A stretch of 64,000 nt of DNA from Bremerella sp. P1 (GTDB taxonomy: Bacteria > Planctomycetota > Planctomycetia > Pirellulales > Pirellulaceae). This document shows positions 39,446-54,228 of the stretch, piece after piece. The translations under genes and the position numbers were made by a program. Positions within the stretch are counted from its first letter, which is position 1. Each line of letters starts with the position of its first letter. The DNA lies in contig NZ_CP118164.1 of NCBI RefSeq assembly GCF_028748185.1, positions 4,055,814 through 4,119,813 on the forward strand, in the 5' to 3' direction. The notes under the pieces are model-generated. The model saw nothing but the letters and a program-made list of their open reading frames with translations. It had not been told where the DNA came from and did not search any database.

Positions 39446-40795
39446 CTACCCTACCAGACTCCTATCTAACATCCGATAGTTAATCGCCTCGCAAACATGG
39501 TCGGCTGAAATCGTCGTAGCCGATTCAAGATCGGCGATCGTTCTCGCCAGGCGTAAGATCTTATCGTAGGCCCGGGCGCTCAGGCCGAAGTTGCTGATGC
39601 TTTGTTTCATCAGGGCGGCGGCATCTTCTTCGACGTGGCAGAACTTGCGGACTTCGCGGCTGCTCATTTGGGCGTTATAGCGGGTACGGCTGCCGACGAA
39701 GCGGCGGGTTTGGATCTTGCGGGCCGCGATGACCATCTCCTTCAGTTCCGCGCTACTGGTTCCTTCCGTCTCGCTAGCTAGTTCCTGGTACGGAACCGCA
39801 GGGACTTCGATCTGAATGTCGATTCGGTCGAGCAAAGGGCCGGAGATCTTGCCGACATATTTCTCGACCTGCGGAACCGAACATCGGCAATCGCGGCGGG
39901 GGTCGTTGCGGAAGCCGCACGGGCACGGGTTCATCGCCGCGACCAGCATGAAGTCTGCGGGGAAGGTTACGCTGCGCAAGGCTCGACTGATGGTGACCTG
40001 CCGATCTTCCAACGGCTGCCGCATCAGTTCCAGCGTGCGGCGGTTGAACTCGGGTAGTTCATCGAGAAAAAGAATTCCATTGTGCGAAAGACTAATCTCA
40101 CCCGGAGCCGGGTTGCTGCCACCACCCACGAGGCCGGCCTCCGAGATCGTATGGTGCGGCGAACGAAACGGGCGAGTCGCCAGCAGCGGCTGATTGGTCG
40201 CCAGGCGGCCGGTCGCGCTGTAGATGCGGGTTGTCTCGACCGATTCTCCTGGGGTGAGTTCCGGCAGGATCGTCCGTACCCGCTTGGCGAGCATTGTCTT
40301 GCCGGAACCTGGCGGACCGACAAGAAGCAGATTATGCATTCCGGCCGAAGCGATGGTGGCTGCGCGTTTGGCGAGTTCCTGTCCGCGAACATCGGCAAAA
40401 TCGACTTCGTAGGTCGAGTGCTCTTCCAAGAGGGCTTGGATCTGGGGTGGGACCGGTTCGATATCGAGCTGACCGGAAAGGAAGCCGACCGCTTCGCTCA
40501 GGCTGGCGACCGGGATGACCTCGATTCCTTCGACCACGGCCGCTTCCCGGGCATTCTCTGCCGGCACGATGATGCCACGCAGCTTTTGCTTTTCCGTTTC
40601 CATCGCCTTGGAAAGAATCCCGCGGATCGGACGCGTATTGCCGTCGAGGGCCAGTTCACCGACGATCGCGTACTCGCTCAATCGATCGCTTTCGAGTTGG
40701 CCGCTGCCCAGCAGGATGCCCAGCGTGATTGGCAAATCGAATGAGGCAGCGTTTTTCGGGAGTTCGGCCGGGGCATGATCCCGTAACTGTAGCAT
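39446..40795 (-). pseudogene. comM: comM/yifB, C-terminal part, cut off by island
   Basis: Residues after the junction form most of a YifB/ComM protein, a hexameric AAA+ helicase-like ATPase that aids branch migration in natural transformation. Present are the rest of the ChlI-like domain (KNAASFDLPITLGILL), Walker A LLVGPPGSGKTMLA, Walker B ILFLDELPEF, the zinc-like CPCGF and CRCSV cysteines, and the Mg-chelatase C domain. Chromosomal sequence ends at 40774; the frame continues into island DNA, with an accidental ATG at 40795. About 70 N-terminal residues are missing and lie at 54014-54228. A truncated product could be made, but is probably not functional. Confidence 0.92.
40767..40774. other. 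Left attachment core (attL)
   Basis: Eight-base core GCCGGGGC. Left of it is comM (coding strand minus), right of it is element DNA. Identical to the core at 54014-54021 and in the same reading phase for comM and for the integrase. Confidence 0.85.
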
Positions 40796-40941
40796 TGCGC
40801 CGCGAGTTCGGACCGGTCGAGATCGGGGAGGTACTAGGGCAACCATGGAAGGATTCTATCAAAAAGGCCCACAACGCAGCACAGGAGAGCTATAGACGGA
40901 GGCGAGAGGCCGCCAAATCCATAAAATCGAACTCCCACTAA
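40767..40941 (+). pseudogene. Displaced 3' end of the serine integrase gene
   Basis: From the core onward the + strand is open in the phase used by the integrase, giving 55 residues after the core (HDPVTVALRREFGPVE, a middle with WKDSIKKAHNAAQESYRRRR, and KSNSH at the end) before TAA at 40939-40941. In the integrated state this piece is separated from its start by 13 kb; in the circular element it would be the C-terminus of the integrase. It is basic and helical, suited to DNA contact. In the present state it lacks a plausible start and is probably silent. Confidence 0.75.
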
Positions 40942-40951
40942 TCAACTACGT

Positions 40952-40976
40952 CATATCGGTCGAAACGACCGATATG
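40952..40976. promoter_or_regulatory. Palindrome over the start codon of GIY-YIG gene 1
   Basis: CATATCGGTCG and CGACCGATATG (11 bases each, spacer AAA) form a perfect inverted repeat whose right arm ends in the ATG at 40974. As RNA it would bury the start codon and the place of the ribosome-binding site; as DNA it is a plausible repressor site. Either way it could delay expression of the nuclease. No good ribosome-binding sequence is visible outside it. Confidence 0.55.
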
Positions 40977-41765
40977 AGCCTGACAGAATTACAAATTGTT
41001 CTAAATCAGTTGAAGGTCACACTCGCGGATTCGGACGGAATTCTTAGCGACGTGAGGCGCCTTACCGATCGCCGCAAGAACAACCTCCAGCGTCAACTTG
41101 ATGACTTTGCAGCTAAGCTTCGGCAATTGTCCGATAGGATTGACCCGACATTGCCCCCGGCTATGGTCTATGACTTGAAGAATCCAGCGATTACCGGGAT
41201 GTTGATTGGTCGCGCCCTAGGAGAATCGGAGCCACAACCGATAGCCGATGTGCATCGGTTCTATGGTTCGGGGGTCTACGCTATCTACTACACTGGCAAG
41301 TTCGCGGCGTATCAACCAATCAAGGGCACGACATGCCCAATTTATGTGGGCAAGGCGAGACCCGATCGCGACGAAGCGGTCACCCCTAAAGAGCAAGGGC
41401 CTGCGGTCTGGGACCGACTAGCTAAGCACGCAAGCAATCTTCGGAAAGCTAAGCATGTCAGGATTCAGGATTTCCACTGCCGGTATATGGTCATCCAATC
41501 AGGGCTACAAGACGCAACCGAAGAATACCTGATCAAACACTTTCGCCCGATATGGAATCTGGTTGTTACAGGGTTTGGAAAACACGGAGATCGGGAGCGA
41601 GGCGAACTCTCGAAGTGGGACGTGTTACATTCAGGCCGACCGTGGGCAACTGGGCAGACGTCGCGTAAGAGGAAAACACCGGCTTCCATAAAGGTAGAAA
41701 TCAGCAAGCATTTCCAATCAATCGCTATGGAACCTTCCCGGTCCTCGCTGCTCAATCCGGAGTAA
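40974..41765 (+). CDS. Eco29kI-type GIY-YIG restriction endonuclease 1 (divergent, longer)
   Basis: Encodes 263 residues. The first 60 are a charged helical segment that may be a coiled coil; the rest aligns with Eco29kI-family nucleases and with the neighbour at 41774. GIY-YIG elements: GVYAIYY at 100-106, CPIYVGKA at 121-128, RLAKHA at 148-153, a Glu in TEEYLI and the Asn in PIWNLVVTGFG. The tail WDVLHSGRPWA is shared by the family, but the HDPG loop is altered to HGDR, so target or activity may differ. It is convergent with nuclease 2, eight bases apart, and has no methyltransferase of its own. Confidence 0.82.
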   Translation: MSLTELQIVLNQLKVTLADSDGILSDVRRLTDRRKNNLQRQLDDFAAKLRQLSDRIDPTLPPAMVYDLKNPAITGMLIGRALGESEPQPIADVHRFYGSGVYAIYYTGKFAAYQPIKGTTCPIYVGKARPDRDEAVTPKEQGPAVWDRLAKHASNLRKAKHVRIQDFHCRYMVIQSGLQDATEEYLIKHFRPIWNLVVTGFGKHGDRERGELSKWDVLHSGRPWATGQTSRKRKTPASIKVEISKHFQSIAMEPSRSSLLNPE

Positions 41766-41773
41766 ATGGAAAC

Positions 41774-42385
41774 CTAGAAAGTCGCGATAATTGCGGTTTC
41801 GATGTCCTCCAGTATGCTATCCGAAGTCCTAGCGTTTTCTGCGCAACGCATTGCCCACTCTCTGCCTGGATGAACAACATCCCATGGGGAACGCTGCTGG
41901 TTATAGCGCCCCCTGCCCGGATCATGGTTGCCGTATCCGTCTAATGTTGTGTTCCATACCGGGGAGAACATCTGGATCAACAGAGCCTCACCAAGTGGAA
42001 TCCAGATATCATCAACAACTAGATAGCGGCAGAAAAAATCGGACCGGTCTATGTTCCCTGCCTGTTCTACCGATTGCCCATGTTCATTCAAACGCCCAAA
42101 CAACGCCCGCCCTGGTGAGACATTCAGACCGAATCCTCCACGCCTAGCGCCCGCTGGTATTGCTTTACCGACATAGATTGGCCACTCGAAACGGTTCTCC
42201 CGATTCCTTTCCGAAATCTTTCGATATGCTGGGAAGTCACCGGTGTAGTAGATTGCGTAAACACCAGCCCCAAGAAAAGCCTCTGGTGGCGGCAGTGGCT
42301 CCACGGGTCGCCTTAAGATGGCGTTAGCTACGCTTTCGCCTAGATGAACCTTGTCCAGTGGGTTGTATGGCGTTTCTTCCCTCAC
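41774..42385 (-). CDS. Eco29kI-type GIY-YIG restriction endonuclease 2
   Basis: A 203-residue type II restriction enzyme close to the Eco29kI pattern: AGVYAIYYTG at 40-49, WPIYVGKAIPAG at 68-79, RLNEHGQS, DFFCRYLVVDDIWIPLGEALLI, PVWNTTLDGYGNHDPGRGR and SPWDVVHPGREWA. All catalytic positions (Tyr pair, Arg, His, Glu, Asn) appear intact. GTG at 42385 has AAGG just upstream and overlaps the methyltransferase end by 62 bases, so the nuclease is translated after the protecting enzyme. Eco29kI itself cuts CCGCGG; the site here is not known. Confidence 0.9.
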   Translation of the reverse strand: MREETPYNPLDKVHLGESVANAILRRPVEPLPPPEAFLGAGVYAIYYTGDFPAYRKISERNRENRFEWPIYVGKAIPAGARRGGFGLNVSPGRALFGRLNEHGQSVEQAGNIDRSDFFCRYLVVDDIWIPLGEALLIQMFSPVWNTTLDGYGNHDPGRGRYNQQRSPWDVVHPGREWAMRCAENARTSDSILEDIETAIIATF

Positions 42386-43535
42386 GCCTTCGCTCCGTCG
42401 CTAAGCTTTCCCGGATGTTCGTTGCTATTTTCGCGGCAATGGATACCGGGACGGCGTTTCCGAGTTGCCGCATGGTTTCGGTCCAAGAGCCCGCGAAAAT
42501 GAAGTTATCGGGAAAGGTCTGCAATCGCGCGCTTTCCCTCACCGTGAAGTATCGGACATCCCCGCTAGGGTAGGCCAGCATATTTTCACCACCCGGGACA
42601 CCGTGGTCACCTGCCTTGAGTGTCTTGGCTGGGACATCTAGCGGGCTGCCGGTATGCCCCTTGTAGGTTCTTGCCCCGGGATTGTGGACATGGTTGGGGA
42701 TTTTGTTGCGGCCCTTTGTTGGGTCTGGCAAATCAGAGATTGCATCTCGGACCGTCAACCACGATTCCAAGCCGTCACCGGCTTCGAGTTGTTCAAGACG
42801 GCGATCGGTAATCGTCGGCATGGGGGGCCGCTTCCGTTTGGTGATCTTATGGCGGTCCCAGTATTCCCCCGTAATCCATTGGCTGCGCAGCAAAGCAGCG
42901 TGGGAATGCGTTGGTTGTGGGAATGCCCATCGCGCGGCGATGTCACTACGAAAAGCAACAATGAAAACCCGTTCGCGCTTTTGGGGTACGCCGAAATCAG
43001 CGGCGTTGATTCGGTTCCAGACAACTTGATAGTGGAGCCCGGATTTATTGCGGCCCCTTGTGTGATGGCGTTCCAACCTTTCGTGGTGTTTCTGCCATTC
43101 CTCGTTAGCTTTGATCGTGAGTTCAGGATAGGTGAGTTGTAGAATCACGTACTCAAAGAACGAATTGAAAGCCGGACGTAACAAGCCTTTGACGTTTTCA
43201 ATGAGCACCGCGCGCGGCATTGTCTCGCGTACGGCACGGACAGCTTCGGGGAAAAGGTTGCGGTGGTCGCTATGGCCCCGATGCTTTCCACCGATTGAAA
43301 ACGGTTGGCATGGCGGTCCACCGGCGACAAGGTCAACGCCTTCATAGGGCTTGAAATCGAACTCTCGGACATCGCCTTGGTAGATTGGCCAATCGACAAC
43401 TCCGCGCCGGTTATTCTCGCGGATTGTATCGCATGAATTGCGGTCGTATTCGACAACGGCAGCATGATCGAAACCGGCGGCCTTGGTTCCAAGAGCAAGT
43501 CCGCCACCACCCGCGAAAAGTTCAATAGCTTTCAT
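42324..43535 (-). CDS. DNA (cytosine-5) methyltransferase of type II R-M system
   Basis: A 403-residue enzyme that methylates C5 of cytosine and protects host DNA. Motif I FAGGGGLALG is at 7-16, motif IV GGPPCQPFS with catalytic Cys76, motif VI ENVKG at 113-117, motif VIII QKRERVFIVA, a target-recognition region of about 110 residues, and motif X RQLGNAVPV. ATG at 43535 with GGAAG upstream is preferred to the longer frame from 43598, which overlaps the Vsr gene. Order vsr, methyltransferase, nuclease with overlaps is a single operon. Confidence 0.95.
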   Translation of the reverse strand: MKAIELFAGGGGLALGTKAAGFDHAAVVEYDRNSCDTIRENNRRGVVDWPIYQGDVREFDFKPYEGVDLVAGGPPCQPFSIGGKHRGHSDHRNLFPEAVRAVRETMPRAVLIENVKGLLRPAFNSFFEYVILQLTYPELTIKANEEWQKHHERLERHHTRGRNKSGLHYQVVWNRINAADFGVPQKRERVFIVAFRSDIAARWAFPQPTHSHAALLRSQWITGEYWDRHKITKRKRPPMPTITDRRLEQLEAGDGLESWLTVRDAISDLPDPTKGRNKIPNHVHNPGARTYKGHTGSPLDVPAKTLKAGDHGVPGGENMLAYPSGDVRYFTVRESARLQTFPDNFIFAGSWTETMRQLGNAVPVSIAAKIATNIRESLATERRREGRNAIQPTGQGSSRRKRS

Positions 43536-43945
43536 TCGCCGTCTTCCATGAAGGAACGTACCACTTCCGTGAGGCGTTCCACATCCTTGGTTTGGCACTC
43601 CCAGATAACGAGCACCTTCCAGCCAAGTTTACGCAATTCCCTTTGATTCCGGGTGTCCCGGCGGGCATTGCTTTCCAATTTCGGTTCCCAAAAATCAAGC
43701 TTCGACTTTGGTAATCGGCAATTCGGACACCCTCTGTGACGATGCCAAAAACAGCCATGAACAAAGATGACACGGCGACGGGAGGCAAAGACGAGATCGG
43801 GGTTACCGGGAAGCTTTCTTACGTGAAGTCGATAGCGATATCCCATGCCATGGATAAGCTTGCGGACTCGAAGTTCTGGCTTCGTGTCCTTCGACCGGAC
43901 CCGGCTCATGCGTTCGCTGCGCTGGGAGGGTGTAAGCGTGTCCAT
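43532..43945 (-). CDS. vsr: Very short patch repair endonuclease Vsr
   Basis: A 137-residue nuclease that nicks 5' of the T in T:G mismatches made by deamination of 5-methylcytosine, so it repairs mutations caused by the adjacent methyltransferase. Family blocks are TPSQRSERMSRVRSKDTKPE, YRYRLHVRKLPGNPDLVF with the catalytic Asp, IFVHGCFWHRHRGCPNC (zinc-binding Cys/His) and WKVLVIWECQ. The stop overlaps the methyltransferase ATG as ATGA, so it is translated first. Presence of vsr implies m5C in a defined site. Confidence 0.95.
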   Translation of the reverse strand: MDTLTPSQRSERMSRVRSKDTKPELRVRKLIHGMGYRYRLHVRKLPGNPDLVFASRRRVIFVHGCFWHRHRGCPNCRLPKSKLDFWEPKLESNARRDTRNQRELRKLGWKVLVIWECQTKDVERLTEVVRSFMEDGE

Positions 43946-44048
43946 GTTACCGATATTCTGGCAAGCTATTGTCAGCCGTCAATAACCCGGCTGAGAAAAC
44001 AGGTTAGAGCGACGGAAGGCGAAGTTGAACGCCTAAATGTGAGCCCGC

Positions 44049-44819
44049 CTATCTGCTACTGCGATGGGCAATTGTGGCGTTATGGTAACTTACGAACTGT
44101 GGACCGATTTCGTGCAAAGGGTGTCGACGCAATGTTTCGATATCCAAGTGAATTGCTCCGAAATCGCAAAGGGCGTGATGATTTGGGCAAACTACAAGGA
44201 TATTTCCTTCAACATCCGGGCCATCGTGAGGGCTGCCGAGAGGTTGCAGGTGATGGGCTTCCGAGTAGAACGTCCCGTCCGATAGCTTCAAAGCCTCGCC
44301 ACATATCTGGCACCGGTTGCCGTGAAGTTCCTTGATTCGTTTCGCCAGGGCCGTATCACGTATGATTCTGGATATCGTGGTCTCTGTTCGGTCTGCTGGT
44401 ACGGGTTCGATGTCGACTGCGATCAGGAAACGCTCTTCCACTCTCCATGTGATTTTCACCGGTGAAGAATCTTCCGAGTTCTTCGCGATGACGGTTCCCC
44501 AGAACGTGAACGCCCCTCGCTCGACGCTTCGGGTGAATAGGAAGATTTTCCCAGTCGGGTTGAGCATCCATTGGATTTGAGGCTGCCTGAGCTTGGTTCC
44601 GGTCTTCGCAAACCAGACGAAATCATCTCCCTCCCAGTGATTGTCGTAGTCGTGATCCGTGCGCCCTTTCACACCGACATTGCAGAAAATGTAGAGGTTG
44701 TTCTCATACCGGTTGTAGCCCGTTTCCCAGTTCCCACGTTGCAGGTGAGTGGGGACGTCGAGCAAGCGATAGACGTCGGCGCGGGTGTATTCTGTCCCGG
44801 GAATGAAAGGGTGAGACAT
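44049..44819 (-). CDS. HNH endonuclease with DUF3427-like N-terminal domain
   Basis: Encodes 256 residues. The N-terminal 140 (YTRADVYRLLDV, GNWETGYNRYENN, GRTDHDYDNHWEG, PQIQWML) resemble the DUF3427 type domain found in restriction-linked helicases and nucleases, probably a DNA or base-modification sensor. The C-terminal HNH fold has CQICG, the His-His of SEAHHLQPLG and a CPNHHALCDFG zinc and metal motif, so it should cleave DNA. It precedes vsr by 103 bases on the same strand. It may be a modification-dependent enzyme or a second nuclease of the system; the target is unknown. Confidence 0.82.
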   Translation of the reverse strand: MSHPFIPGTEYTRADVYRLLDVPTHLQRGNWETGYNRYENNLYIFCNVGVKGRTDHDYDNHWEGDDFVWFAKTGTKLRQPQIQWMLNPTGKIFLFTRSVERGAFTFWGTVIAKNSEDSSPVKITWRVEERFLIAVDIEPVPADRTETTISRIIRDTALAKRIKELHGNRCQICGEALKLSDGTFYSEAHHLQPLGSPHDGPDVEGNILVVCPNHHALCDFGAIHLDIETLRRHPLHEIGPQFVSYHNATIAHRSSR

Positions 44820-44921
44820 CAGATGAATCTCCAGTATTGGAATTCCTTCAGAAGGCGGGGGTGGTAACTAGCCGCAGAGGGGTTAGAATCGCGGAAAACT
44901 CTAACACATTCAAGGTGGGCT

Positions 44922-45104
44922 ATGACACCGGAAGAGATTCAGCGTCGATGGGATGAGATCGACAAAGAGCTAGAAGGCATCGCCAAGGGCCGTGTCGTTG
45001 ATGGCGACCCGGCGACGCGAGAAGGCGAACTTCTGGAAGAGTTGGACCGTCTCGAATACGAGGCCGGACTAACCGAGTTTCCGGGGCTTGCGGAACACCA
45101 TTGA
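44922..45104 (+). CDS. Small acidic hypothetical protein
   Basis: A 60-residue, strongly charged helical protein (IQRRWDEIDKELEGIA, REGELLEELDRLEYEAGL). ATG at 44922 is preceded by AAGGTGG at a normal distance, which supports translation. No membrane segment, Cys or known motif. It is divergent from the HNH gene and convergent with the small operon ending at 45147. An antitoxin-like or regulatory role would fit size and charge, but nothing shows it. Confidence 0.6.
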   Translation: MTPEEIQRRWDEIDKELEGIAKGRVVDGDPATREGELLEELDRLEYEAGLTEFPGLAEHH

Positions 45105-45146
45105 GCCAACTTACTCGACGCCTAAGATTTATCTCCCTCCTTGCAA

Positions 45147-45602
45147 CTACGATCGCTTCCACTTGTCATGGAGATCGATCGTATTGGTATAAATCGAATT
45201 CACTCCGAATTCTTCGGGGAATGAATTGATCACCGTATTGATGTACGGACGATATTCAACCTTCCACTCACGATCATCAAGGTGCTTCTTGATGATGCAA
45301 TAGGCCAAGCGATCCACGGTGTTGAGCCAGTTTTCCAAATAGCATTGACGCAAATCCTCAAGAATTTCGATCGCGGCAGGATCGGGATTATTATGGCACT
45401 CTGTCCGAATCCGATTGTTGATTTCGTCCAGTTTCTCTTTGCTGTTGCACATGTCACGTTCAAGCTGGATCACGTTCGCCAATCCAGCGAACGCGACCGA
45501 CTTGTTGAGTTTTCGCAATTGGAAGAATGCGACGAGCACTGCTGCGAGCGTACCGAATCCGCAGACCGCAGAGGAAATCGCTGATACCCATTCTGGAGTC
45601 AT
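45147..45602 (-). CDS. Small membrane protein, last gene of microprotein operon
   Basis: Encodes 151 residues. One transmembrane helix lies at about 5-28 (WVSAISSAVCGFGTLAAVLVAFFQLRKL), followed by a cytosolic helical domain with LANVIQLERDMCNSKEKLDEI and VDRLAYCIIKKHLDDREW, similar in plan to DUF4760-like proteins. Such single-helix proteins are often membrane effectors in defence systems, but no catalytic motif is visible. Its ATG overlaps the end of microprotein 3 as ATGA, so it is coupled to the three small genes. Role unknown. Confidence 0.72.
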   Translation of the reverse strand: MTPEWVSAISSAVCGFGTLAAVLVAFFQLRKLNKSVAFAGLANVIQLERDMCNSKEKLDEINNRIRTECHNNPDPAAIEILEDLRQCYLENWLNTVDRLAYCIIKKHLDDREWKVEYRPYINTVINSFPEEFGVNSIYTNTIDLHDKWKRS

Positions 45603-45754
45603 TTGTTTTCCTGCTTCTTCTTCATTTCAGTGATGGCTTCCTGTGCTTTACGATCATTTTCGGAAGTGCCCTTACCGCCCTGCGAACCCTGTACGTGTTG
45701 CGGACGCAAGTCCATTTCCTTGAAACGAACATCATCATTTTTCCGATCGGACAT
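45599..45754 (-). CDS. Microprotein 3 of tandem paralogous set
   Basis: A 51-residue, very charged protein. Its second half, QGSQGGKGTSENDRKAQEAI followed by TEMKKK, matches microprotein 1 in spacing and identity (Q-x-S-Q-G, G-T-x-x-N, K-A-x-E-A-I-x-x-M-K). AAGGAG lies six bases before this ATG; another ATG is one codon upstream at 45757. It overlaps the end of microprotein 2 by 20 bases and the membrane gene by four. No hydrophobic segment. Not recognised as a known family. Confidence 0.65.
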   Translation of the reverse strand: MSDRKNDDVRFKEMDLRPQHVQGSQGGKGTSENDRKAQEAITEMKKKQENK

Positions 45755-45878
45755 CATTTGCTCCTTCTTGTTTAATTGCTTGAATCGCCTTGTCGGCCAT
45801 TTGAGCATTCTTTGCCGAACTGGCACTGGCCTGTGAATTATTGGTAATGCCACTATTGGATTTTTGGTCGTCACTCAT
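45735..45878 (-). CDS. Microprotein 2 of tandem paralogous set
   Basis: A 47-residue polar protein, the most diverged of the set. It is rich in Ser and Asn in the first half. It ends in KNAQMADKAIQAIKQEG and a short tail, matching the N-x-Q-x-A-D-x-A-I-x-x-(M/I)-K core of microprotein 1. The ATG shares one base with the stop of microprotein 1 (TAATG), with AAGG upstream. Longer frames start well inside the preceding gene and are not needed. Confidence 0.62.
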   Translation of the reverse strand: MSDDQKSNSGITNNSQASASSAKNAQMADKAIQAIKQEGANDVRSEK

Positions 45879-46003
45879 TATTTCTTGCCTTCCTTCATCC
45901 GACGAATGGCTTCGTCGGCCTTTTGTTCGTTCTTGACGGTTCCCCGGACCCCCTGCGATTCCTGAATGGATCGCTTGTCGGAGGGTTTCTGCTGTTCGTT
46001 CAT
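45878..46003 (-). CDS. Microprotein 1 of tandem paralogous set
   Basis: A 41-residue protein, too short for many gene finders. After a polar start it reads IQESQGVRGTVKNEQKADEA then IRRMKEGKK, nearly the same pattern as microprotein 3. The shared motif, close spacing and one-base overlap with the next start strongly suggest it is translated. It heads the operon, downstream of the terminator hairpin at 46055-46083. The ribosome-binding site is weak (GTGGTG). Function unknown. Confidence 0.6.
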   Translation of the reverse strand: MNEQQKPSDKRSIQESQGVRGTVKNEQKADEAIRRMKEGKK

Positions 46004-46054
46004 ATGGCACCACGCAGGATTAGAACTTTGACGTAAACTTGAAATCACAGGAAA

Positions 46055-46083
46055 AGCCCACGGCGCGAATCGCGCCGTGGGCT
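46055..46083 (-). terminator. Terminator hairpin between Cas2-like gene and microprotein operon
   Basis: Perfect 13-base-pair stem (46055-46067 with 46071-46083) with an AAT loop. On the minus strand it is followed by TTTT. It isolates the microprotein operon from the upstream gene. Confidence 0.85.
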
Positions 46084-46092
46084 ATTAACAGA

Positions 46093-46365
46093 CTACGACA
46101 GCGCGTCCTTTAGCCAATCCGAGGCGTTCTTATTGAAGCCGATCCAAGCCGCCTCTCCAGAGAGATGGGCGACAAGCAACTTGTCGTTGCCGTCCAGATA
46201 GGGCGCCAGATTGTCGCGAATTTGACTAGCGGACAACGAAGTCGTGACGATCCATGTGGAGTCCAGGTGATGCCACCAGTTCCCCACCTTCTTGATCGCC
46301 TCGTACAAATCGGCATAGTTCTGACCTGGCCGATTCAGGTCGTACGAAATCATGTATGGTTTCAT
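46093..46365 (-). CDS. SinR-like/Cas2-fold protein
   Basis: A 90-residue protein of the type named SinR family, with a Cas2/VapD-like ferredoxin fold: MISYDLNRPGQNYADLYEAI, then WWHHLDSTWIVTT and a last strand LLVAHLSGEAAWIGF. The Asp in YDLN corresponds to the one used by metal-dependent Cas2. ATG at 46365 follows GGAGGT by seven bases; longer frames lack this. There is no cas1 and no array nearby, so this is a solitary relative, perhaps an mRNA interferase or an orphan regulator. Inside the defence half of the element. Confidence 0.8.
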   Translation of the reverse strand: MKPYMISYDLNRPGQNYADLYEAIKKVGNWWHHLDSTWIVTTSLSASQIRDNLAPYLDGNDKLLVAHLSGEAAWIGFNKNASDWLKDALS

Positions 46366-46420
46366 CGAAGAAACCTCCATGCCCCCTAGGAAACAGGTTG
46401 ACATGAAGGCGATGGCGGAG

Positions 46421-46454
46421 TACCTGTATGCATAGGGGGAAAGCCTTACAGGTA
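46421..46454. promoter_or_regulatory. Inverted repeat upstream of Cas2-like gene
   Basis: TACCTGTA (46421-46428) and TACAGGTA (46447-46454) are perfect inverted copies with an 18-base spacer, about 60 bases before the SinR-like start. Could be a regulator site covering the promoter. Confidence 0.35.
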
Positions 46455-46470
46455 CCCACCCCGCCCAACG

Positions 46471-46517
46471 AAAGCCGCCTCCGATAAGCCTCAGAAACTT
46501 GTCTCGGAGGCGGCTTT
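46471..46517 (-). terminator. Hairpin after the 125-residue gene
   Basis: Perfect 14-base-pair stem (46471-46484 with 46504-46517) with a 19-base loop, just past the stop of the gene at 46524. The T tract on the minus strand is only three bases, so termination may be partial. Confidence 0.55.
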
Positions 46518-46523
46518 GTGCGT

Positions 46524-46901
46524 TTAATCGGACACACTGTCCTTTGTTATTTCTTTGGCTAGTTCAAAAATCAGTAAACCGGTGTCGCTGTCTTTCTGTA
46601 GCTCGAACCGGTGGGACTCCTTGTAGTCGATCTCAAACCGGTCACAAAAATTCTTCGCGCGGATATACGTGTTCGTTGGGCTGCGTTTGATATCAATTGC
46701 GCCCTCGCTGTTCTCGTTTGTTAATTCGATACCTACCACGCGTTCTACCGGATCAAAATAGAGAATCGCCTTCTCATAGCTGTTGATATCGAAGCGGTTG
46801 ATCGCACCGGCATTGAAACCAAGCTGGCCCGTTTGGCGGACCGTGATCCTCGCCACGAAGGACGTGTCGGTATCGGTGAATTTTTGAAAGTTAAAGGCCA
46901 C
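46524..46901 (-). CDS. Hypothetical protein, beta-rich
   Basis: Encodes 125 residues from GTG at 46901, which has AAGGA five bases upstream; the frame is open to 46958. Alternating strands dominate: FVARITVRQTGQLGFNAGAI, KAILYFDPVERVVGIELTNE, and a C-terminal KDSDTGLLIFELAKEI. The pattern suggests a compact beta protein, with no membrane segment or nuclease motif. It stands alone with its own hairpin. Not recognised; could belong to the defence cargo. Confidence 0.6.
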   Translation of the reverse strand: MAFNFQKFTDTDTSFVARITVRQTGQLGFNAGAINRFDINSYEKAILYFDPVERVVGIELTNENSEGAIDIKRSPTNTYIRAKNFCDRFEIDYKESHRFELQKDSDTGLLIFELAKEITKDSVSD

Positions 46902-47591
46902 GGGTTTCCTTTCTGATTGCTTCGATTGGAGCATATTTTCCGAATGCGCCAACAGCAAAAATCGTCTTCAAGAGAAAAAACTTTCAAATTCTCATCGCGA
47001 TCCTCACTCGCTTCTTTGTTTGCTATATCGACGTTGTTTGGTTCTAAATCTCATCGCGAACAACATTCCCGAATTGAATTCCTGAGCTGAACTCCAATGA
47101 GGATATTGTTGTTCAAACATCTTTTTTCTGTGTCGAGATATTGCTTCTCCTGCATGGACCCAAATTCTTCATGGCTTGAATTTATATTTTGCCGCATGTT
47201 CAAAGTTGTTCTCTTTTGTTCAGCATTTCATCGCACAGTGTTTCTAATTACGTAATTAAAATGTCACAGTAATTATTAGGGTAATTTCCAAGGTAATTTC
47301 AAAAACGTGACTCGTGCTAGAAATCCAATCGACTGGATTCCTACGGCATTACAAAGTTTAGAATGACCAATGATTTCAATAAGCTGTGCGAAATGAAGTC
47401 AGCGTCGCCCCTCTGTAGACTGGATCGCTAGTGGGTGATGGCGACGCGGTACCGCCCATTTTCACTGGTGCGCAGTTCGTCGAAAGGGCTGGACTAGCGG
47501 CCCATGGGAGGGGGTGTGGTCAATCATCAAATTTGACCCACCCCCTACGATCGACACAACACAACCTCACGACGAGCGTCTGGAGATCGTG
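46902..47591. other. AT-rich gene-free region
   Basis: No coding frame. Base composition is clearly richer in A and T than the flanks between about 46970 and 47350, a sign of different origin. It contains the GTAATT repeats (47252-47298) and, at 47505-47546, a long imperfect hairpin with arms built on AGGGGGTG and CACCCCCT. It may hold an origin, a transfer site or promoters; nothing decisive was seen. Confidence 0.4.
47252..47298. repeat. Four short direct repeats (GTAATT)
   Basis: GTAATT occurs at 47252, 47269, 47281 and 47293, with steps of 17, 12 and 12 bases, inside the most AT-rich part of the element. Regular spacing of about one helical turn is typical of protein-binding iterons, but the unit is short and may be chance in such sequence. 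Confidence 0.35.
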
Positions 47592-48230
47592 TCAGGCTCT
47601 CGCAAGGACGCGAGCCACGGCCGTGGGACTCCACGCCTTCCCCCGTGTCGTTAGGTGGCCTGCCTGCGTCAGGTGATCGGCGATGGCCTGAAGGGAATCA
47701 CCGGCGGCTCGCATGGCCTGCATGGTTGCGAGGATGCCGCTATAAGCCTTGGCGGCCTTAGCTCGCATAGCGTCGGCCCCGGCGCGTCTCGCGGCTTCCG
47801 TGAGGTTGTCAGGGTTCCCCAGGCGAACGCCTCGCGCCTTGGCTGCCGCTAGGGCGTCCTTGGTGCGTTGCGAGATACGCGCGGCCTCATCTTCGGCCAC
47901 GGCCGCCATGATATGGACCGTCAGCCTGTTGGCGTTGGGCATGTCGCACGCCACGAACTCTACACCGGCCTCCATGAGGTTCGCCACGAAAGCCACGTTG
48001 CGGGCTAGGCGGTCTAGCTTTGCGATGACGAGGACTGCCCCCGTCCTGCGACACTCTGCGATTGCTGCCGCGAGTTGTGGACGATCCGACTTCTTTCCCG
48101 ATTCCACTTCGATGAACTCAGCAGCAGGCGAATAAGAGGCCACGGCCGCGCGTTGGGCCTCCAGACCTAAGCCGGATTGGCCTTGGCGTTGGGTGCTGAC
48201 TCGAAGGTAGGCGACGTGTGGCTTGCTCAT
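47592..48230 (-). CDS. Serine recombinase (resolvase/invertase type)
   Basis: A 212-residue small serine recombinase. The catalytic domain has [15 protein letters not shown] with Ser12 as nucleophile, [12 protein letters not shown] with the conserved Arg, and [22 protein letters not shown] of the long E helix. The C-terminus ends in a helix-turn-helix ([18 protein letters not shown]). Such proteins resolve dimers or invert DNA; this one lies far from the ends of the element, so it is not the integrase. No inverted repeat pair marking an invertible segment was found around it. Confidence 0.88.
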
Positions 48231-49203
48231 GATGTCGGTTCCGGGCGGTTAAACTTCTCTCACCTACCCAATTTTACATTGCTTGAACGTCCGTTGAAGG
48301 AATGTAAAACGCATTTTGCCCAACTTCACCGGCCGGTGGTGACGATTGGATGAGCTATGCCGGTAGACGCGGTTGTCCGGGTTTCGCCGGTCGCGATGCC
48401 AGACGCGGCCGGTATGATTTCACCGGTTGAAGAGATTGTGACGACTTTTGCAAAGTGAACAGACGTATACTATACATTAACCGCGCGAGACGCGGTGCAG
48501 TATCACGCGTGGTCGCGTCGTCAGCGGCTCACCTGCCAGAAACAGTAACCATTTCACCCCGATTGTTACCCTTTTGTGAGCGGTTTCGTGAGATGTCGGG
48601 CGACGCGTGCAATATTCGCAAGTATTGGCACTGTATGTACTTCGGCAATTTACCTGTTTCCTGATTCCTTATTTTAGTTACTGAGTTAGTTAGTTATTTA
48701 TCTCTTGAGAATCATATAAGGGGAAAGTGTTTTAATACTCCTATAAGAGAATAGAAGCGAGAAAACGGTAATCGGCTAATTGGGTAACTGTTGTTTTGCA
48801 ACTTATTGTATGGCAGTGGGTTACGAATATTATCCTTTTGAATTGACTCGGAAAATGGGTAATCTCGGGCAACTAGAGAGTCGACTGAAATGGCAATAGC
48901 CTCTGAGAGGCCCGGAGGCGACGTCTCGCGGCATTTGGCAGCAAGTGGCGTGGTTCATCGTTCTTGCGGCTCGCACGCAGAGGGCGGGCTGCTAGCAGCC
49001 TTAAAATTGATACTGGCCACCGGCAGCACATCTCAGGAATAGGTGCGTTAGTCTTGACGCGTTGATAAGGAATATTTGTAGAAGTTTGGTGCAAGTCCTG
49101 AATTTAGAGGGCCTTTTGGGAGATACTAAGGGGGTAAGGCAATCTTTTCTGGCCGACACTCTGAACCACCGTCACGGTTCCCCATTCTGAAAGGCAAGAC
49201 ACC
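48231..49203. other. Large gene-free region of the element
   Basis: About 970 bases without a convincing gene. The first third is GC-rich, with repeated CCGG-type words; from about 48660 to 48850 it is AT-rich with TTAGTTAGTTA. A perfect short palindrome, GTATACTATAC, sits near 48466. A 69-codon frame from a GTG at 48455 exists but has no ribosome-binding site or family match. It might hold an origin or transfer region. Confidence 0.4.
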
Positions 49204-49479
49204 GTGACGATTCAAGAATTTCTCCACACCAACTACCACACTGACCCACGTGGCCGCGTCAAACTCAAGGACGCCTACCACGGGTATCTCACATCTCTCG
49301 ACGAGCGCCGACGAGTGGTCTGGCCTCGTTGGCGTTTCGTTGAGGTTGTTTCTGCACTTGGCTTCCCAATCGGGAAAAATGCCGATGGCGTTGCCTATGT
49401 CGCTGGCATCTCGCCAGAACCACCGAAAACCTGGACCGTCGATGACGACGGCCGAATGCGACTAGCTACCGCAAAGTGA
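49204..49479 (+). CDS. Hypothetical protein, element-borne
   Basis: Encodes 91 residues from GTG at 49204 with AAGG upstream. The sequence TIQEFLHTNYHTDPRGRVKL and the following RRVVWPRWRFVEVVSALGF and GKNADGVAYVAGIS look like a winged-helix fold and recall the small DNA-binding domain at the end of phage primases (a remote resemblance). It stands before a group of strong hairpins that would end its transcript. Not part of the overlapping operon that follows. Confidence 0.6.
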   Translation: MTIQEFLHTNYHTDPRGRVKLKDAYHGYLTSLDERRRVVWPRWRFVEVVSALGFPIGKNADGVAYVAGISPEPPKTWTVDDDGRMRLATAK

Positions 49480-49495
49480 CGGGCGGTGGCAGCCT

Positions 49496-49671
49496 TCCGG
49501 CGGCAGGTATCCTACCTGCCTGCCGCCGGACTCGAACACCCATCGGCCGGGTCTGGGCCGATGGACGGCGACCGTAAGCAATCAACGGTCGCTTCTTCTA
49601 TTTTCCGGGCGGTTTGAAAGTGCCGTCCGTAGAACCCGGTTGCCAGTCACCACGAATACGTGGTGACTGGC
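49496..49671 (+). terminator. Array of four strong hairpins
   Basis: In 176 bases there are four perfect stems: 49496-49506 with 49520-49530 (11 bp), 49540-49548 with 49556-49564 (9 bp), 49568-49575 with 49585-49592 (8 bp) and 49642-49654 with 49659-49671 (13 bp). The last two are followed by TTCTT-type tails, as terminators often are. Far more structure than one terminator needs; it may also be a structured RNA or a recombination site. Confidence 0.6.
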
Positions 49672-49696
49672 TTCTTTCAACTTAGGAAACCCCGCT

Positions 49697-49933
49697 ATGA
49701 ATCCCTATGCACACACTCGAAAAACACTATTCGCCGACCCCCACAGTGCCCACGGCGAAAACGCTTGGCTGCTGGCCATTTTGAATATGGGCGAGCAACT
49801 CGACGTGACCACGAATGGAAATCCATTCGTTGCCGTTTGCGATGACCTGGAGTCGCGCGGCATCTCGCCGAACGCCCTGGCGCGAGTCCGTCAGATGCTC
49901 AACACCCAGTCTCAACGACGCGAGGCGCGCTAA
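49697..49933 (+). CDS. Hypothetical protein, first gene of element operon
   Basis: A 78-residue helical protein (NAWLLAILNMGEQLDVTT, DLESRGISPNALARVRQMLN). AGGAAA precedes the ATG at 49697. Its stop overlaps the next start by one base (TAATG), so the genes are coupled. No motif recognised; the size and the DNA-binding-like Arg-rich end would fit a small regulator. Confidence 0.62.
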   Translation: MNPYAHTRKTLFADPHSAHGENAWLLAILNMGEQLDVTTNGNPFVAVCDDLESRGISPNALARVRQMLNTQSQRREAR

Positions 49934-50565
49934 TGCTACCCGATCACTACTTCGTATATGACGACGCTGGCAATCGAGTTCGTCTCAAATCCTTCGATGA
50001 GCGGGCAGCCGACCGGCAGCGCGCCGCCAATACAAAATCCCAAGTAGCCCGCGAGGCGGCCGAACTGGCGCCCCGAGAGCAAACTCCCTGGCAATCGTCT
50101 TTCGCGGATCATGCCGCCAAGACGCTAGAGTCAGCGCGAACCCCTGGCGAGATTGCAGCAGCAAAACGCCGCCTAGCAATTGCTAAGAAGGTCTCCAAGG
50201 AACAGCAAGCCGAAGCGGCCGAACAATCTCGACTTGATGCACTCGGCAATCATCCCGAAGTGAAAACGGCGCGAGAGTGCGCGGCGTCTCTGTCGCTCGC
50301 TTCCTACCCGCATGCAAGCGAGCAAGATATCGCCTATGCCCGCGCTGTCGCAAGATCGAACGATCTATCACCGGACGTACTCGCTACTGAGTTTTGGGGC
50401 ATCATCGACCGACTAGCCGAAGCCGAACTCAACGCCGCGAGAGGCAAAGCAGCCAAGCAAGCCGAAGAGCGTGAAAAGGCGAACCTAGACCACTCGCGGA
50501 CGATGGTTTCCATTTCCGAGCGTGAGGCCGAACGCGAGAAAATTAAGGAACGCCTCAGTGAGTGA
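49933..50565 (+). CDS. Hypothetical coiled-coil protein
   Basis: Encodes 210 residues, rich in Ala, Glu, Lys and Arg. Long helices are expected at 20-105 and 150-210, with heptad-like patterns (KRRLAIAKKVSKEQQAEAAE; KAAKQAEEREKANLDHSR). The first 20 residues form a strand-like head (HYFVYDDAGNRVRLKSF). No membrane or nuclease motif. Probably a scaffold or DNA-associated protein of the element. It overlaps the next gene by eight bases, and the preceding one by one. Confidence 0.65.
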   Translation: MLPDHYFVYDDAGNRVRLKSFDERAADRQRAANTKSQVAREAAELAPREQTPWQSSFADHAAKTLESARTPGEIAAAKRRLAIAKKVSKEQQAEAAEQSRLDALGNHPEVKTARECAASLSLASYPHASEQDIAYARAVARSNDLSPDVLATEFWGIIDRLAEAELNAARGKAAKQAEEREKANLDHSRTMVSISEREAEREKIKERLSE

Positions 50566-51355
50566 CCTATCCCACGAAACCAAAGTGCGCTGGTTGCATG
50601 ATCCGGCGCGCCGTTGGGCTTGGGTGCGCTGCCTCACGGTTGATGCCGAAATGGGAATCACGGCAACTAGTATGCACGGTTCGCAAATTGTGGCTTATTC
50701 CATCTCGCGAGCACACGAAATCAACGGCGTCTACACTCCTGCGAGAGTCTCGCGGATTCTCTATCGAAACGTCATGCGGCCACGTCCGGAAGGCTGCACG
50801 GTTGATGACATCCCCGAAGATGCTGTTTTCCCTCGTCTGGACCTTCACTGTCCGGCGTTGCATCCGAGTCGATACCCGAAGCGTATCCCCGGTGATGACG
50901 TCTGTCAGCAGTCCGCCTACTATCACGACACCTTCCAGAAATTCTGGCAGATGTCCGACATAATCGACGCCGAACCAGTCCCACAACGTCGCGAGCATGC
51001 CCACGACATCCTGCACCACGTCGCGGAACAAGAGACGGAAGTTGTCTGGCTTCTCCCTGATTTCCGCTATGCAACTTGGTTGCATGAAACCACGTCCGGT
51101 ACGCACGGCGAATTCACGCCCGATTCCTTCCCCCGTCGCCTACTCGTTGCCTTCAGTCGAACCGACTACGGGCGTTGTCGAGTTTGGACAATTCCAAAAG
51201 GTATGACGGGATTAGAAGAACCTGTCCCGTCTCCTGGTTGGTGGCCAGTGAACCCTCTATCCATCTGCGCCGGTTGTCGGTCCGAGTCACCACGCAAGCG
51301 ATGGCACCCAATCGACCGAAGCGTCAGAAAGAAACTAACTGGTTTGATTCAATGA
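50558..51355 (+). CDS. Hypothetical protein, element-borne
   Basis: Encodes 265 residues from GTG at 50558, preceded by AAGGA eight bases away; an earlier GTG at 50522 would deepen the overlap. It is rich in Arg, Pro, Trp and His, with VRWLHDPARRWAWVRCL at the start, REHAHDILHHVAEQE in the middle and CAGCRSE near the end, where two Cys spaced as CxxC could bind zinc. The fold and role are not recognised. The stop overlaps the next ATG as ATGA. Confidence 0.62.
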   Translation: MSDLSHETKVRWLHDPARRWAWVRCLTVDAEMGITATSMHGSQIVAYSISRAHEINGVYTPARVSRILYRNVMRPRPEGCTVDDIPEDAVFPRLDLHCPALHPSRYPKRIPGDDVCQQSAYYHDTFQKFWQMSDIIDAEPVPQRREHAHDILHHVAEQETEVVWLLPDFRYATWLHETTSGTHGEFTPDSFPRRLLVAFSRTDYGRCRVWTIPKGMTGLEEPVPSPGWWPVNPLSICAGCRSESPRKRWHPIDRSVRKKLTGLIQ

Positions 51356-51501
51356 ACCTTGAATATCTCAAAGCCCAAGCCGAAGCGGCCTTTCAGCGGT
51401 ATCTAGCTGAGACCGATAGCCGAAAGAAGAAAGTCTTCCTCCAGGCTTGGCAGAATGACAAGCTTCTCGCCGAACTCGCTGAGCGACGGCAACAAAAGTA
51501 G
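51352..51501 (+). CDS. Small helical hypothetical protein, last gene of operon
   Basis: A 49-residue protein (NLEYLKAQAEAAFQRYLAE, then KVFLQAWQNDKLLAELAERR) predicted to be one or two amphipathic helices. It starts in an ATGA overlap with the previous gene and ends just before a strong terminator, which supports its reality. Too short to place in a family. Confidence 0.6.
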   Translation: MNLEYLKAQAEAAFQRYLAETDSRKKKVFLQAWQNDKLLAELAERRQQK

Positions 51502-51509
51502 GCGGGGTC

Positions 51510-51547
51510 AGGCCCCGGGGTTTGTTCATTTTTCCCCGGGGCCTTTT
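51510..51547 (+). terminator. Intrinsic terminator of element operon
   Basis: Perfect 11-base-pair GC-rich stem (51510-51520 with 51534-51544), 13-base loop, then a T-rich tail. Eight bases after the stop at 51501. Confidence 0.9.
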
Positions 51548-51723
51548 TCTTGGGTTCGCACGAAACGAAAGGCCACGGCAAACAGCCAAGTTTCAAAGGG
51601 CATGTCAGTGGGCTTCTCGTGATTTGCCACGTATCGCCAAACGGCCGCTAACACGGGTTCGACGTTGGAAGTCTTGCGGGCAATGGCTGTTGTTAATAGG
51701 GCGTTGTAGCTGCTGTTCATCAT
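51526..51723 (-). CDS. Small hypothetical protein
   Basis: Encodes 65 residues from ATG at 51723, with AGGAA six bases upstream. It is helical (NALLTTAIARKTSNVEPVLAAVW, MPFETWLFAVAFRFVRTQ). Its 3' end runs through the loop and one arm of the terminator of the opposite operon, which is odd but possible. Reasonable ribosome-binding site, no family match. The next 400 bases up to the integrase hold only repeats and terminators. Confidence 0.45.
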   Translation of the reverse strand: MMNSSYNALLTTAIARKTSNVEPVLAAVWRYVANHEKPTDMPFETWLFAVAFRFVRTQEKGPGEK

Positions 51724-51831
51724 GGCGAGTTCCTCAGTAGTTGGCGGCGATTGACTACTGAAAGCATGCACCGGGAACCACTTGCGTCAACGGAAAAGAT
51801 TGCCCTGAAAGGCTTTGCGTCTTGCTAGATT

Positions 51832-51894
51832 CTAGCTAGATGCAATCAGGGAGAAGCAACCGACGCTGGGAAATCCTGCCTCTCATCTAGCTAG
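51832..51894. repeat. Inverted repeat upstream of integrase
   Basis: CTAGCTAGATG (51832-51842) and CATCTAGCTAG (51884-51894) are perfect 11-base inverted copies with a 41-base spacer. They lie in the 400-base gene-free stretch before the integrase and could bind a regulator or an excision factor. Confidence 0.45.
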
Positions 51895-51975
51895 TTTCTT
51901 GACGATCTAGGATCGAAAAATTTTTGGGTTTCCATTTCGCCGTGACCGTCGTAGTAGTGGCCTAGGAACGGCGTT

Positions 51976-52049
51976 GCCCCGGCCCTGTTACTCCAGGGGG
52001 CCGGGGCTTCTTATTCAAGGCAAGGCCACCGGGGGACCGGTGGCCTTTT
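51976..52049 (+). terminator. Two tandem terminator hairpins before the integrase
   Basis: First hairpin: 10 base pairs, 51976-51985 with 51998-52007, tail TTCTTATT. Second: 11 base pairs, 52022-52032 with 52037-52047, tail TTTATTTT. They would stop transcription arriving from the left and insulate the integrase. The first stem happens to contain the attachment octamer in both orientations. Confidence 0.75.
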
Positions 52050-52130
52050 ATTTTGCGACTACTGAATTGCTAGCGCGATCGAATCAAAGTAGGCTTGATC
52101 GGACGAGACTACCCAAACAAGGAACGCCCC

Positions 52131-54029
52131 ATGAGATTAGCAGCCTACGTCCGAGTCAGTTCTGACAAGCAGGATGTCACTCGCCAACGTGACAACATAA
52201 CAGCCTGGACAGCCCGCAATGGGGCCGCGCCTATCTGGTATGAGGACAGCGACGGGAAGAACCCCCGGCATCGGTCAGACAAACGGCAGAACTTCCAGGC
52301 CCTACTCACGGCAGTGAAGGCGGGGAGGTTCGATAGAATCATTGTGGACTCACAAGATAGATTCGGTACGAAGGACGCCTTCGAGTGGGGCAAACTGATT
52401 TCCATCTTGCGAGATCACGAATGCGAGTTGATCGACTCGCAGGGCAGGCTATTGTCCGGGGACGATGACGGTTCCGTCCTGACGGGCGTTGTGGGCGCTC
52501 TGACAAGCAAACGCGAGCAACGCGAGAAGGCGCACCGGAATATCTCCGGCAAGGTTACCTATGCCCGCAAGGGTGAGTATCAAGGCGGCTACGCGCCATA
52601 CGGGACGGACGTAGTTTGCTTCGGCCCTGACGGGAAAGAGAAGTGGCGGACGGTCTATGTCGGTCACCTGGACCGGTTGAAGGTTTATCCGGGCGGTAAG
52701 TCGGAACGATTCACTGGGAAGAACGTCACCCCGGTTAAGGACACCACCGACACGCTACGTCTGCGACCTTCCAAGGAGAAGGACCGGTTGAAGATTGTCC
52801 GGCAGGTTTTCAAATGGTACTCTACAGAAGACATCTCACCCCGTGGAATTGCCGACCGTCTCAACGGTCTCCAGGTTTCGCCGATCTTCGGAGAGGCATG
52901 GTATAAGCACACGATACGGGCGATGCTCTCGAACCCCATCTATATCGGGCTTCCGACCTGGAACAAGCGAAGCAACGCCGCATTCGTAGAGTATGTCGAC
53001 GGGCGTCTCCAGGAAATAAACGGGAAGGCTAGGACCAAGCGCCGCGATTGCGCCGATTACGTCCAGCCCGAAGCGCCGGAATTTGCGCCGATTGTCCCCG
53101 TTGAAACTTTCAACAAGTGCCAGAACAAACTCAAGGCCGCGAGCAAAGCAGCCAACAGGGGGCACCGGTCGCCCAAACTTGCGGAACTCTGGTTGAGGCC
53201 GTTTCTCTATTGCGGCCATTGTGGCGAGGTCATGCACGCCGCCGGTGGAGGTGGTTCAACTCGGATGAAACCTAACTACTTTTGCAGCACCTACAACAAA
53301 TACGGCCCCAAGAATCCCAAGGGCTGCCACTGTCACCGGGTGCGCCATGAGGTTCTAGAAGAATTCGTTTTGCGATACCTGAAGGAAACCGCGCCCAAGG
53401 TGGCGCAGTTGATCCAGGCGAGCGACACGGGCGACGTAGAGGGCGTCCGGTCGATCCTGGTAAACGGGCGGTTCCTGGAGCAGGAATTCGCGGACGTCGC
53501 CTGCGATGTCATCGCCTACGTTGAAGAGTTCGCCACGTCCAAGGAACGTAAGCGAATTGGGGAGGGATTCGATGTGGTTTTCGGTTTGGCCTTCGAGCGA
53601 ATCCGGCCCAAGCTCGAAAAGTTGATTGCTGAGAAGGAAACCGAACTAGATGGCATGCTAGACGACTACCGGACGTTGCCGGATTCATTGAAGGTTCGCG
53701 CCGTCGCAAAGATGGAACCACTGGAAGCCGAGATCGGCGAACTACGGCAACGGCTGGTTGATCTTCGGAAGCCTTTCCAGGGCATCCGTGAGGAACTCGA
53801 AACCCGCAAGACGGCCCTTGAGGCGGCAGAGAAGGAAATCGAACGGGAGGCCGCCGGACGCCGCAAGGGTGAAGCCTTGCGGGGTGTTGTGGATAGGATC
53901 GTCTGCCACTTCCAGCATGGGGAACGGAAGGTGAACAACGGCCGAAGTCGTTTAACTAGGCTCGAAATAGTCCCGATTTCCGGGGATTCTATAAGCTTCA
54001 TGGGCGGGGCCTCGCCGGGGCGAGGTTGA
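52131..54029 (+). CDS. Large serine integrase of the element
   Basis: A 632-residue site-specific recombinase. The catalytic domain begins AAYVRVSSDKQ with Ser10 as nucleophile, followed by RIIVDSQDRFGTKD. A recombinase domain follows at about 220-320 (RGIADRLNGL, SNPIYIGLP), then a zinc ribbon (YCGHCGEVM with later CHCHRV) and a long coiled coil. ATG at 52131 follows AAGGA by seven bases. The frame crosses the right attachment core and stops 8 bases past it, in comM DNA, so the last two residues (Arg-Gly) are host-encoded. In the circular element the protein would be 685 residues. Confidence 0.93.
   Translation: MRLAAYVRVSSDKQDVTRQRDNITAWTARNGAAPIWYEDSDGKNPRHRSDKRQNFQALLTAVKAGRFDRIIVDSQDRFGTKDAFEWGKLISILRDHECELIDSQGRLLSGDDDGSVLTGVVGALTSKREQREKAHRNISGKVTYARKGEYQGGYAPYGTDVVCFGPDGKEKWRTVYVGHLDRLKVYPGGKSERFTGKNVTPVKDTTDTLRLRPSKEKDRLKIVRQVFKWYSTEDISPRGIADRLNGLQVSPIFGEAWYKHTIRAMLSNPIYIGLPTWNKRSNAAFVEYVDGRLQEINGKARTKRRDCADYVQPEAPEFAPIVPVETFNKCQNKLKAASKAANRGHRSPKLAELWLRPFLYCGHCGEVMHAAGGGGSTRMKPNYFCSTYNKYGPKNPKGCHCHRVRHEVLEEFVLRYLKETAPKVAQLIQASDTGDVEGVRSILVNGRFLEQEFADVACDVIAYVEEFATSKERKRIGEGFDVVFGLAFERIRPKLEKLIAEKETELDGMLDDYRTLPDSLKVRAVAKMEPLEAEIGELRQRLVDLRKPFQGIREELETRKTALEAAEKEIEREAAGRRKGEALRGVVDRIVCHFQHGERKVNNGRSRLTRLEIVPISGDSISFMGGASPGRG
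54014..54021. other. Right attachment core (attR)
   Basis: GCCGGGGC, identical to the octamer at 40767-40774. Left of it is the integrase gene, right of it the N-terminal part of comM on the minus strand. Crossover somewhere in this octamer explains both junctions. Confidence 0.85.
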
Positions 54030-54228
54030 TCACCACGCGGTCCCGTGGGCAGAAGAAGCCACTGTTGACGATGGCCCGCTCGATGCGGTGAACGCTTTCC
54101 TTCACCGCCGCTTCCGGTAGGCCGACCAGGACGGTCTTGGGCAATGCCGTGGGGGAAACGTCGACTTCGACCTCCACAGGAATCGCATCGATGCCGGCCA
54201 TGGAGTAGGTACGTAGTTGAGCCAGCAT
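54014..54228 (-). pseudogene. comM: comM/yifB, N-terminal fragment
   Basis: About 71 codons of comM: MLAQLRTYSMAGIDAIPVEV, then VLVGLPEAAVKESVHRIE and VVINLAPA, the conserved start of the ChlI-like domain of YifB proteins. After the core the frame enters integrase DNA (on the opposite strand) and ends within a few codons (RPRP, stop at 53998). It keeps the natural start and presumably the natural promoter of comM, which would now transcribe antisense into the integrase end. The fragment alone cannot be an ATPase. Confidence 0.9.

Follow-up and report, generated by a model that had tools for sequence, protein, structure and literature searches.

In Mx8, a phage of Myxococcus, attP lies within int and integration gives the gene a new 3′ end, and passages of the published work describe the product of the integrated gene as active with changed specificity (PMC6070905). 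Mx8 Int is of the tyrosine type according to Pfam, with Phage_int_M scoring 27.9 bits against a cut-off of 27 and Phage_integrase remaining below its cut-off. The archaeal suicidal integrases of SSV, pTN3 and pT26-2 likewise carry their recombination target within the integrase gene, which is broken by integration; the portions of a 2021 review that concern them describe tyrosine recombinases whose split parts are held to be inactive, and term self-disrupting recombinases exclusively archaeal (PMC8371274). By contrast, the sections of two reports that deal with the location of attP place it outside the integrase gene, downstream in SV1 (PMC4068962) and upstream in phiJoe (PMC5311408).

We analysed a stretch of 64,000 nucleotides from Bremerella sp. 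P1, hereafter the window, which carries an integrated element with a large serine integrase gene. As in Mx8, attP lies inside the integrase coding sequence and the 3′ end is replaced upon integration, whereas the Mx8 enzyme is of the tyrosine type and that of the window is of the serine type. By analogy, Mx8 is the closest precedent, nearer than the mycobacteriophage repressors with which the initial annotation had compared the locus. Unlike the archaeal suicidal integrases, the window integrase is predicted to lose a C-terminal extension only, leaving its canonical domains intact. Its domain order, and an attP inverted repeat around a short core, resemble those of SPbeta YokA, phiC31, SV1 and phiJoe, and the protein matches SPbeta integrase structures in profile comparisons; unlike in SV1 and phiJoe, however, the attP is inside the integrase gene. 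In mycobacteriophage BPs the gene altered by integration is reportedly a repressor, while in the window it is the integrase itself. The comparison was nevertheless a fair one, as integration-dependent immunity in BPs reportedly involves an attachment site in a phage gene and a product shortened by integration (PMC4557955). The passages of PMC10083194 and PMC12884075 on the chosen terms do not mention an attP within a serine integrase frame, and no serine case of an internal attP was recognised among literature titles and the opening lines of abstracts, a scope that most subscription papers fall outside.

The element (40775–54013, 13.2 kb) lies between two copies of the octamer GCCGGGGC (40767–40774 and 54014–54021, + strand) and splits a comM/yifB-like host gene on the minus strand, codons 1 to about 71 being at 54014–54228 and the 3′ part, from about codon 71, at 39446–40774. 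With the element removed and the host flanks joined, a single comM-like frame reads through ...INLAPAELPK.... In the integrated copy, the integrase starts at an ATG at 52131 and has 632 residues (Int-S, 52131–54029, + strand). Its frame crosses the right-hand octamer and ends in ...ASPGRG before a TGA at 54027–54029, its last codons and stop being supplied by the antisense strand of the comM 5′ part. When the ends of the element are joined at the octamer in silico, the same frame gains 55 codons to give an integrase of 685 residues (Int-L), whose tail (GHDPVTVALRREFGPVEIGEVLGQPWKDSIKKAHNAAQESYRRRREAAKSIKSNSH, 40771–40941, + strand) ends with a stop at 40939–40941. The initial annotation had placed attP inside the 3′ coding end of the gene; its coordinates (54014–54021, 40767–40774 and 40941) hold, and both protein lengths were reproduced by this joining.

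Int-L is a reconstruction from sequence. None of 114 integrase open reading frames at the retrieved loci, a set with many duplicates, is a contiguous natural form of it, which is the expected result if all sampled copies were integrated, and the circle junction of the window element was not found in viral contigs. The window genome contains a single full integrase copy, and the sole further match is a distant frame of 201 codons. Pfam recognizes Resolvase (residues 4–149), Recombinase (219–335) and Zn_ribbon_recom (355–418) domains, all wholly upstream of the core and hence complete in Int-S. Because Int-S retains every canonical serine integrase domain, the change upon integration is best viewed as the probable loss of a state-dependent C-terminal extension rather than as inactivation.

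Several features of the surrounding DNA are recorded here in their own right. At 39446–40846 the 3′ comM part is open into the element up to an ATG antisense to the tail, a frame of 466 amino acids that might yield a truncated ComM-like product with a different N-terminus; this open extension is not common to all relatives, since G810 has a stop near the junction. Adjoining the tail at 40974–43945 are two Eco29kI-type endonuclease genes and genes for a C-5 cytosine methylase and a Vsr endonuclease. Inspection by eye places cytosine methylase- or Vsr-like genes downstream of the tail in G558 and G461 as well, and a DNA-methylase-like frame after the tail in G810. A small serine resolvase-type gene within the element (47592–48230) has a role that is perhaps dimer resolution. 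In G502, a second, distant large serine integrase gene (L071:1578–3689) runs in the same direction and overlaps the tail end by 8 bases.

Relatives of the integrase were identified by whole-genome searches in 9 of 392 genomes of the phylum (E≤1e-20) and 28 of 397 of the class (E≤1e-25), and by profile in 13 of 396 genomes of the order (E≤1e-60), 9 of 241 of the window’s own family and 6 of 95 in the family of G402 (both at E≤1e-80). These genome samples overlap, and the window’s genome is counted among the phylum, class, order and own-family matches. Profile scans of contigs yielded six genome loci and three viral loci. Of two single-protein contig scans, one gave no relative and the other two matches of 14–16 residues; tblastn against phages and plasmids gave distant integrases only (19 and 5 records).

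We then used the host gene to place the elements. comM was searched in 29, 5 and 3 carrier genomes, and in part of these it was split near codon 71 (site A, as in the window) or near codon 354 (site B), with the integrase 3′ end abutting the comM 5′ half. Both element ends were placed by comM codons, which makes the reading frame over the junction independent of any guess about the core. The site B integrases had no relative in a scan of viral contigs, and a search of phages, made with the G773 tail only, gave no match. Site B (L081/L082 in G741, L083/L084 in G461 and L132/L133 in G773) is used by distantly related serine integrases, and judging from these split genes comM seems to be an integration hotspot offering two sites or more in this class.

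Twelve elements could be mapped at both ends, and in every one the integrase frame is open to the core and continues, in a single phase, as an in-frame tail of 30–113 residues, although the elements are related and do not represent 12 independent events. Counted from the core codon, the tails of the nine site A elements have 56 (G000, the window), 70 (G502), 46 (G558), 80 (G560), 72 (G402), 65 (G810), 30 (G1000), 51 (G1134) and 52 (G1023) residues, and those of the three site B elements have 36 (G741), 113 (G461) and 111 (G773). In the integrated state the host supplies a stop 3 residues from the core codon at site A (9/9), and after 41, 9 and 9 residues in G741, G461 and G773, respectively. 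The phase is also preserved in G807, which has both comM halves and a decayed integrase and was checked by hand, and the tails of the lone left ends in G529 and G539 are in phase.

Kept outside the 12 were, besides G807, the elements of G401 (no crossing), G539 (right end at one comM site and left end at the other), G1022 (right end only), G529 (left end only), G238 (comM halves with ∼18 codons missing between them), G730 and G557 (overlapping comM pieces, probably contig breaks), G581 (left end not found), G602, G576, G703, G492, G438, G426, G987, G413 and more distant relatives. In G539 (Limnoglobus roseus PX52, L096; L079 and L080), comM carries a site A right end together with a site B left end that has a tail of type III (see below), and the middle of comM gives one weak match only, as though it had been lost when two elements recombined.

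The initial annotation regarded homologues that end without a tail as evidence against its reading. G401 is a partial instance: at the same comM site, its related integrase is at the opposite end of the element and terminates by itself some 70 bp short of the core, which indicates that neither tail nor crossing is required for this comM target. A third lineage agrees with the crossing elements. Integrases that are about 91% identical in DNA lie at one end of a small element found at three loci unrelated to each other (L154 in G1125, L155 in G724 and L156 in G600). When the ends of each copy are joined by eye at a shared CAC, a core placed by shared letters only, the integrase frame continues into a strongly basic tail of about 69 residues; the integrase body in G1125 is broken by stops. 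This element may be a transposon-like relative whose targeting is relaxed.

In 9/9 site A elements, rejoining the ends gives an attP in the form of an inverted repeat whose centre falls between the two core G bases. Its arms match at 10–15 of 18 positions, a value that at most 0.9% of 2200 nearby positions equal; the weakest repeats are those of the window (10 of 18) and G502. When left and right ends are compared across the 12 elements, the two GG positions alone are identical in all. The exchanged core at site A is thus most likely the dinucleotide GG (54017–54018 in the right-hand octamer and 40770–40771 in the left-hand copy), and since the repeat is centred on it, the octamer would be mostly shared context around a two-base core. 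GG was rejected as the core at site B, where this centre is not special (14–15% of positions equal it) and the repeat points elsewhere: the best of 50 centres is CA, three bases from GG, in 3/3 elements. Moving the site B core to CA leaves the phase of the frame unaffected.

The tails themselves can be sorted into types. Type I comprises the tails of the window, G1134, G1023 and G810, with a motif like GQPWxxSxxKA...RRR that G810 has in part only; the window tail is homologous to those of G1134 and G1023 and more weakly to that of G810. In the order, 12 of 396 genomes, G671, G708, G807 and G987 among them, matched a profile built from the body end plus the type I tail, and the type I tail profile also matches G529. 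Type II tails (G502, G402 and G560) are resolvase-like helix-turn-helix sequences, that of G502 being above the Pfam cut-offs for HTH_7 and HTH_38 and those of G402 and G560 below. The type II profile also matches open reading frames of about 200–230 residues, one of which (L002) is the 201-codon resolvase-like frame of the window genome. Type III tails (G461 and G773) have Pfam helix-turn-helix matches below cut-off only, with one PHROG helix-turn-helix match at 1e-4 for G461, while G558, G1000 and G741 have short tails with only weak similarity to the rest.

Tail types follow the integrase tree. The four type I integrases share a clade with G558, G1000 and G1022 (98/98), and the three type II integrases belong to a separate group with G539, G581 and G426 (91/95), from which we conclude that tails travel with their integrases; a single group of all site A integrases is poorly supported (29/18). 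For the window tail, which the initial annotation called basic and helical, the first property stands (net charge +4) and the second finds no support: an amphipathic-helix moment at the tail start is not significant in 13 of 14 tails, with only G741 below 0.05, and for this reason a shared tail helix is not claimed. Domain matching of the Pfam/PHROG type recognizes no DNA-binding fold in the window tail. Type I tail stretches also occur away from comM, at L165 (G671), L167 (G708) and L168 (G987).

Taken at the level of the DNA, the existence of two integrase forms, as proposed in the initial annotation, is very likely real: circle and integrated copy specify different C-termini, the 12 two-end-mapped elements are alike in this respect, and their tails are conserved. 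We consider it probable that this is a serine integrase with attP in its own 3′ coding end and a state-specific tail, Int-L being the form of the circle and Int-S the form made after integration. Comparison of the elements shows the frame and the constancy of its phase, the conservation of the tails, where attP is centred and that the host supplies the stop; the steps that follow are the mechanism that we propose. The circular element would encode Int-L (685 amino acids), a complete canonical enzyme with a C-terminal tail that is basic in the window and helix-turn-helix in some relatives, and Int-L would establish integration from the circle. On integration, host DNA would take the place of the tail codons, with the frame being stopped 3 residues from the core codon by comM antisense sequence, and the integrated element would be limited to Int-S (632 amino acids), which is short but domain-complete and, having every recognised canonical domain, likely active. 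The tail would then be a module of the free circle, most likely adding DNA or synapse contacts that favour attP x attB recombination or establishment. Its loss would leave Int-S as the form available for excision, probably still with a directionality factor.

Serine integrases generally use a separate directionality factor. A bolder version of the proposal, which we offer only tentatively, is that in a clade of bacterial serine integrases the tail is a detachable C-terminal DNA-binding module present in the circle alone, such that Int-L integrates and Int-S excises, possibly with little or no need for such a factor. If true, the product of recombination would rewrite the enzyme that made it, and each reaction would end the production of its own enzyme.

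The tail might instead act mainly on expression, with Int-L repressing or activating the int promoter or neighbouring genes and integration lifting this control, recombination itself being little affected. Tails that resemble helix-turn-helix domains (above the Pfam cut-offs in G502 and below them in G402, G461 and G773) would suit such a role, as would the short distance in the circle configuration between the tail and the next gene in some elements, which is 32 bases in the window and an 8-base overlap in G502. However, the tail forms part of a recombinase, tail types track the integrase phylogeny, and the window tail is without a recognised DNA-binding fold. We regard this explanation as unlikely.

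A neutral origin, in which an ancestral stop was lost, the frame ran on through attP, and the conserved sequence is merely an attP arm, is disfavoured and seems to us quite improbable. Open-frame length by itself is weak evidence against it: random starts within the element reach the tail length at frequencies of 0.03–0.38 per element (25% for the window tail), the product of 1.2e-8 applying to related and not independent elements, and an off-phase frame is longer than the tail in 4 of 12 (G558, G810, G1134 and G741). The similarity of the tails is more telling. After removal of the first nine residues, which correspond to the attP arm, the integrase frame shows similarity at p<0.05 in 22 of 66 tail pairs (500 shuffles), compared with 4/66 and 7/66 in the other forward frames and 9/66 in antisense (200 shuffles for these controls, antisense untrimmed). 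The highest z scores are 25.2 (G461–G773), 15.5 (G502–G402), 12.5 (G000–G1023), 11.3 (G810–G1134) and 11.0 (G000–G1134). Moreover, in seven pairs chosen for similarity (298 codons), the fraction of differing sites is 0.43 at codon position 1, 0.39 at position 2 and 0.62 at position 3, the third being the most divergent, and tail pN/pS in the same chosen pairs is 0.24–0.75. The conserved tails also include a helix-turn-helix. Because the tails of relatives are homologous in the same phase, the crossing is more than chance.

That the tail is a separate small protein, made from the integrated left end and adjoining attL by chance, is very improbable: G671 and G819 do have tail-like stretches with no integrase in the roughly 40 kb on their element side, but the G819 match is interrupted by a stop, ATG, GTG and TTG are absent from the first 40 codons in 3 of 12 tails, no start is common to them, and the phase relative to the integrase is constant. 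Such stretches may be relics of decayed elements or orphan tails.

We therefore return to the reading of a state-specific tail on an integrase with attP in its own 3′ coding end. The tails are conserved even though they are unattached to an integrase when the element is integrated, suggesting that circles probably re-form often enough for selection to act, and the fact that relatives behave alike suggests that the circular and integrated states have different forms of the enzyme. The internal-attP design known from the tyrosine-type Mx8 integrase would thereby be extended to bacterial serine integrases. How these enzymes choose direction is a central question and the basis of DNA-insertion tools, and the elements described here would offer natural pairs of enzymes, identical except at the C-terminus, one for each DNA state. 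With attP, attB, attL and attR reconstructed, the question of direction can be assayed directly. Integrases that were taken from integrated copies may be without their native C-terminus.
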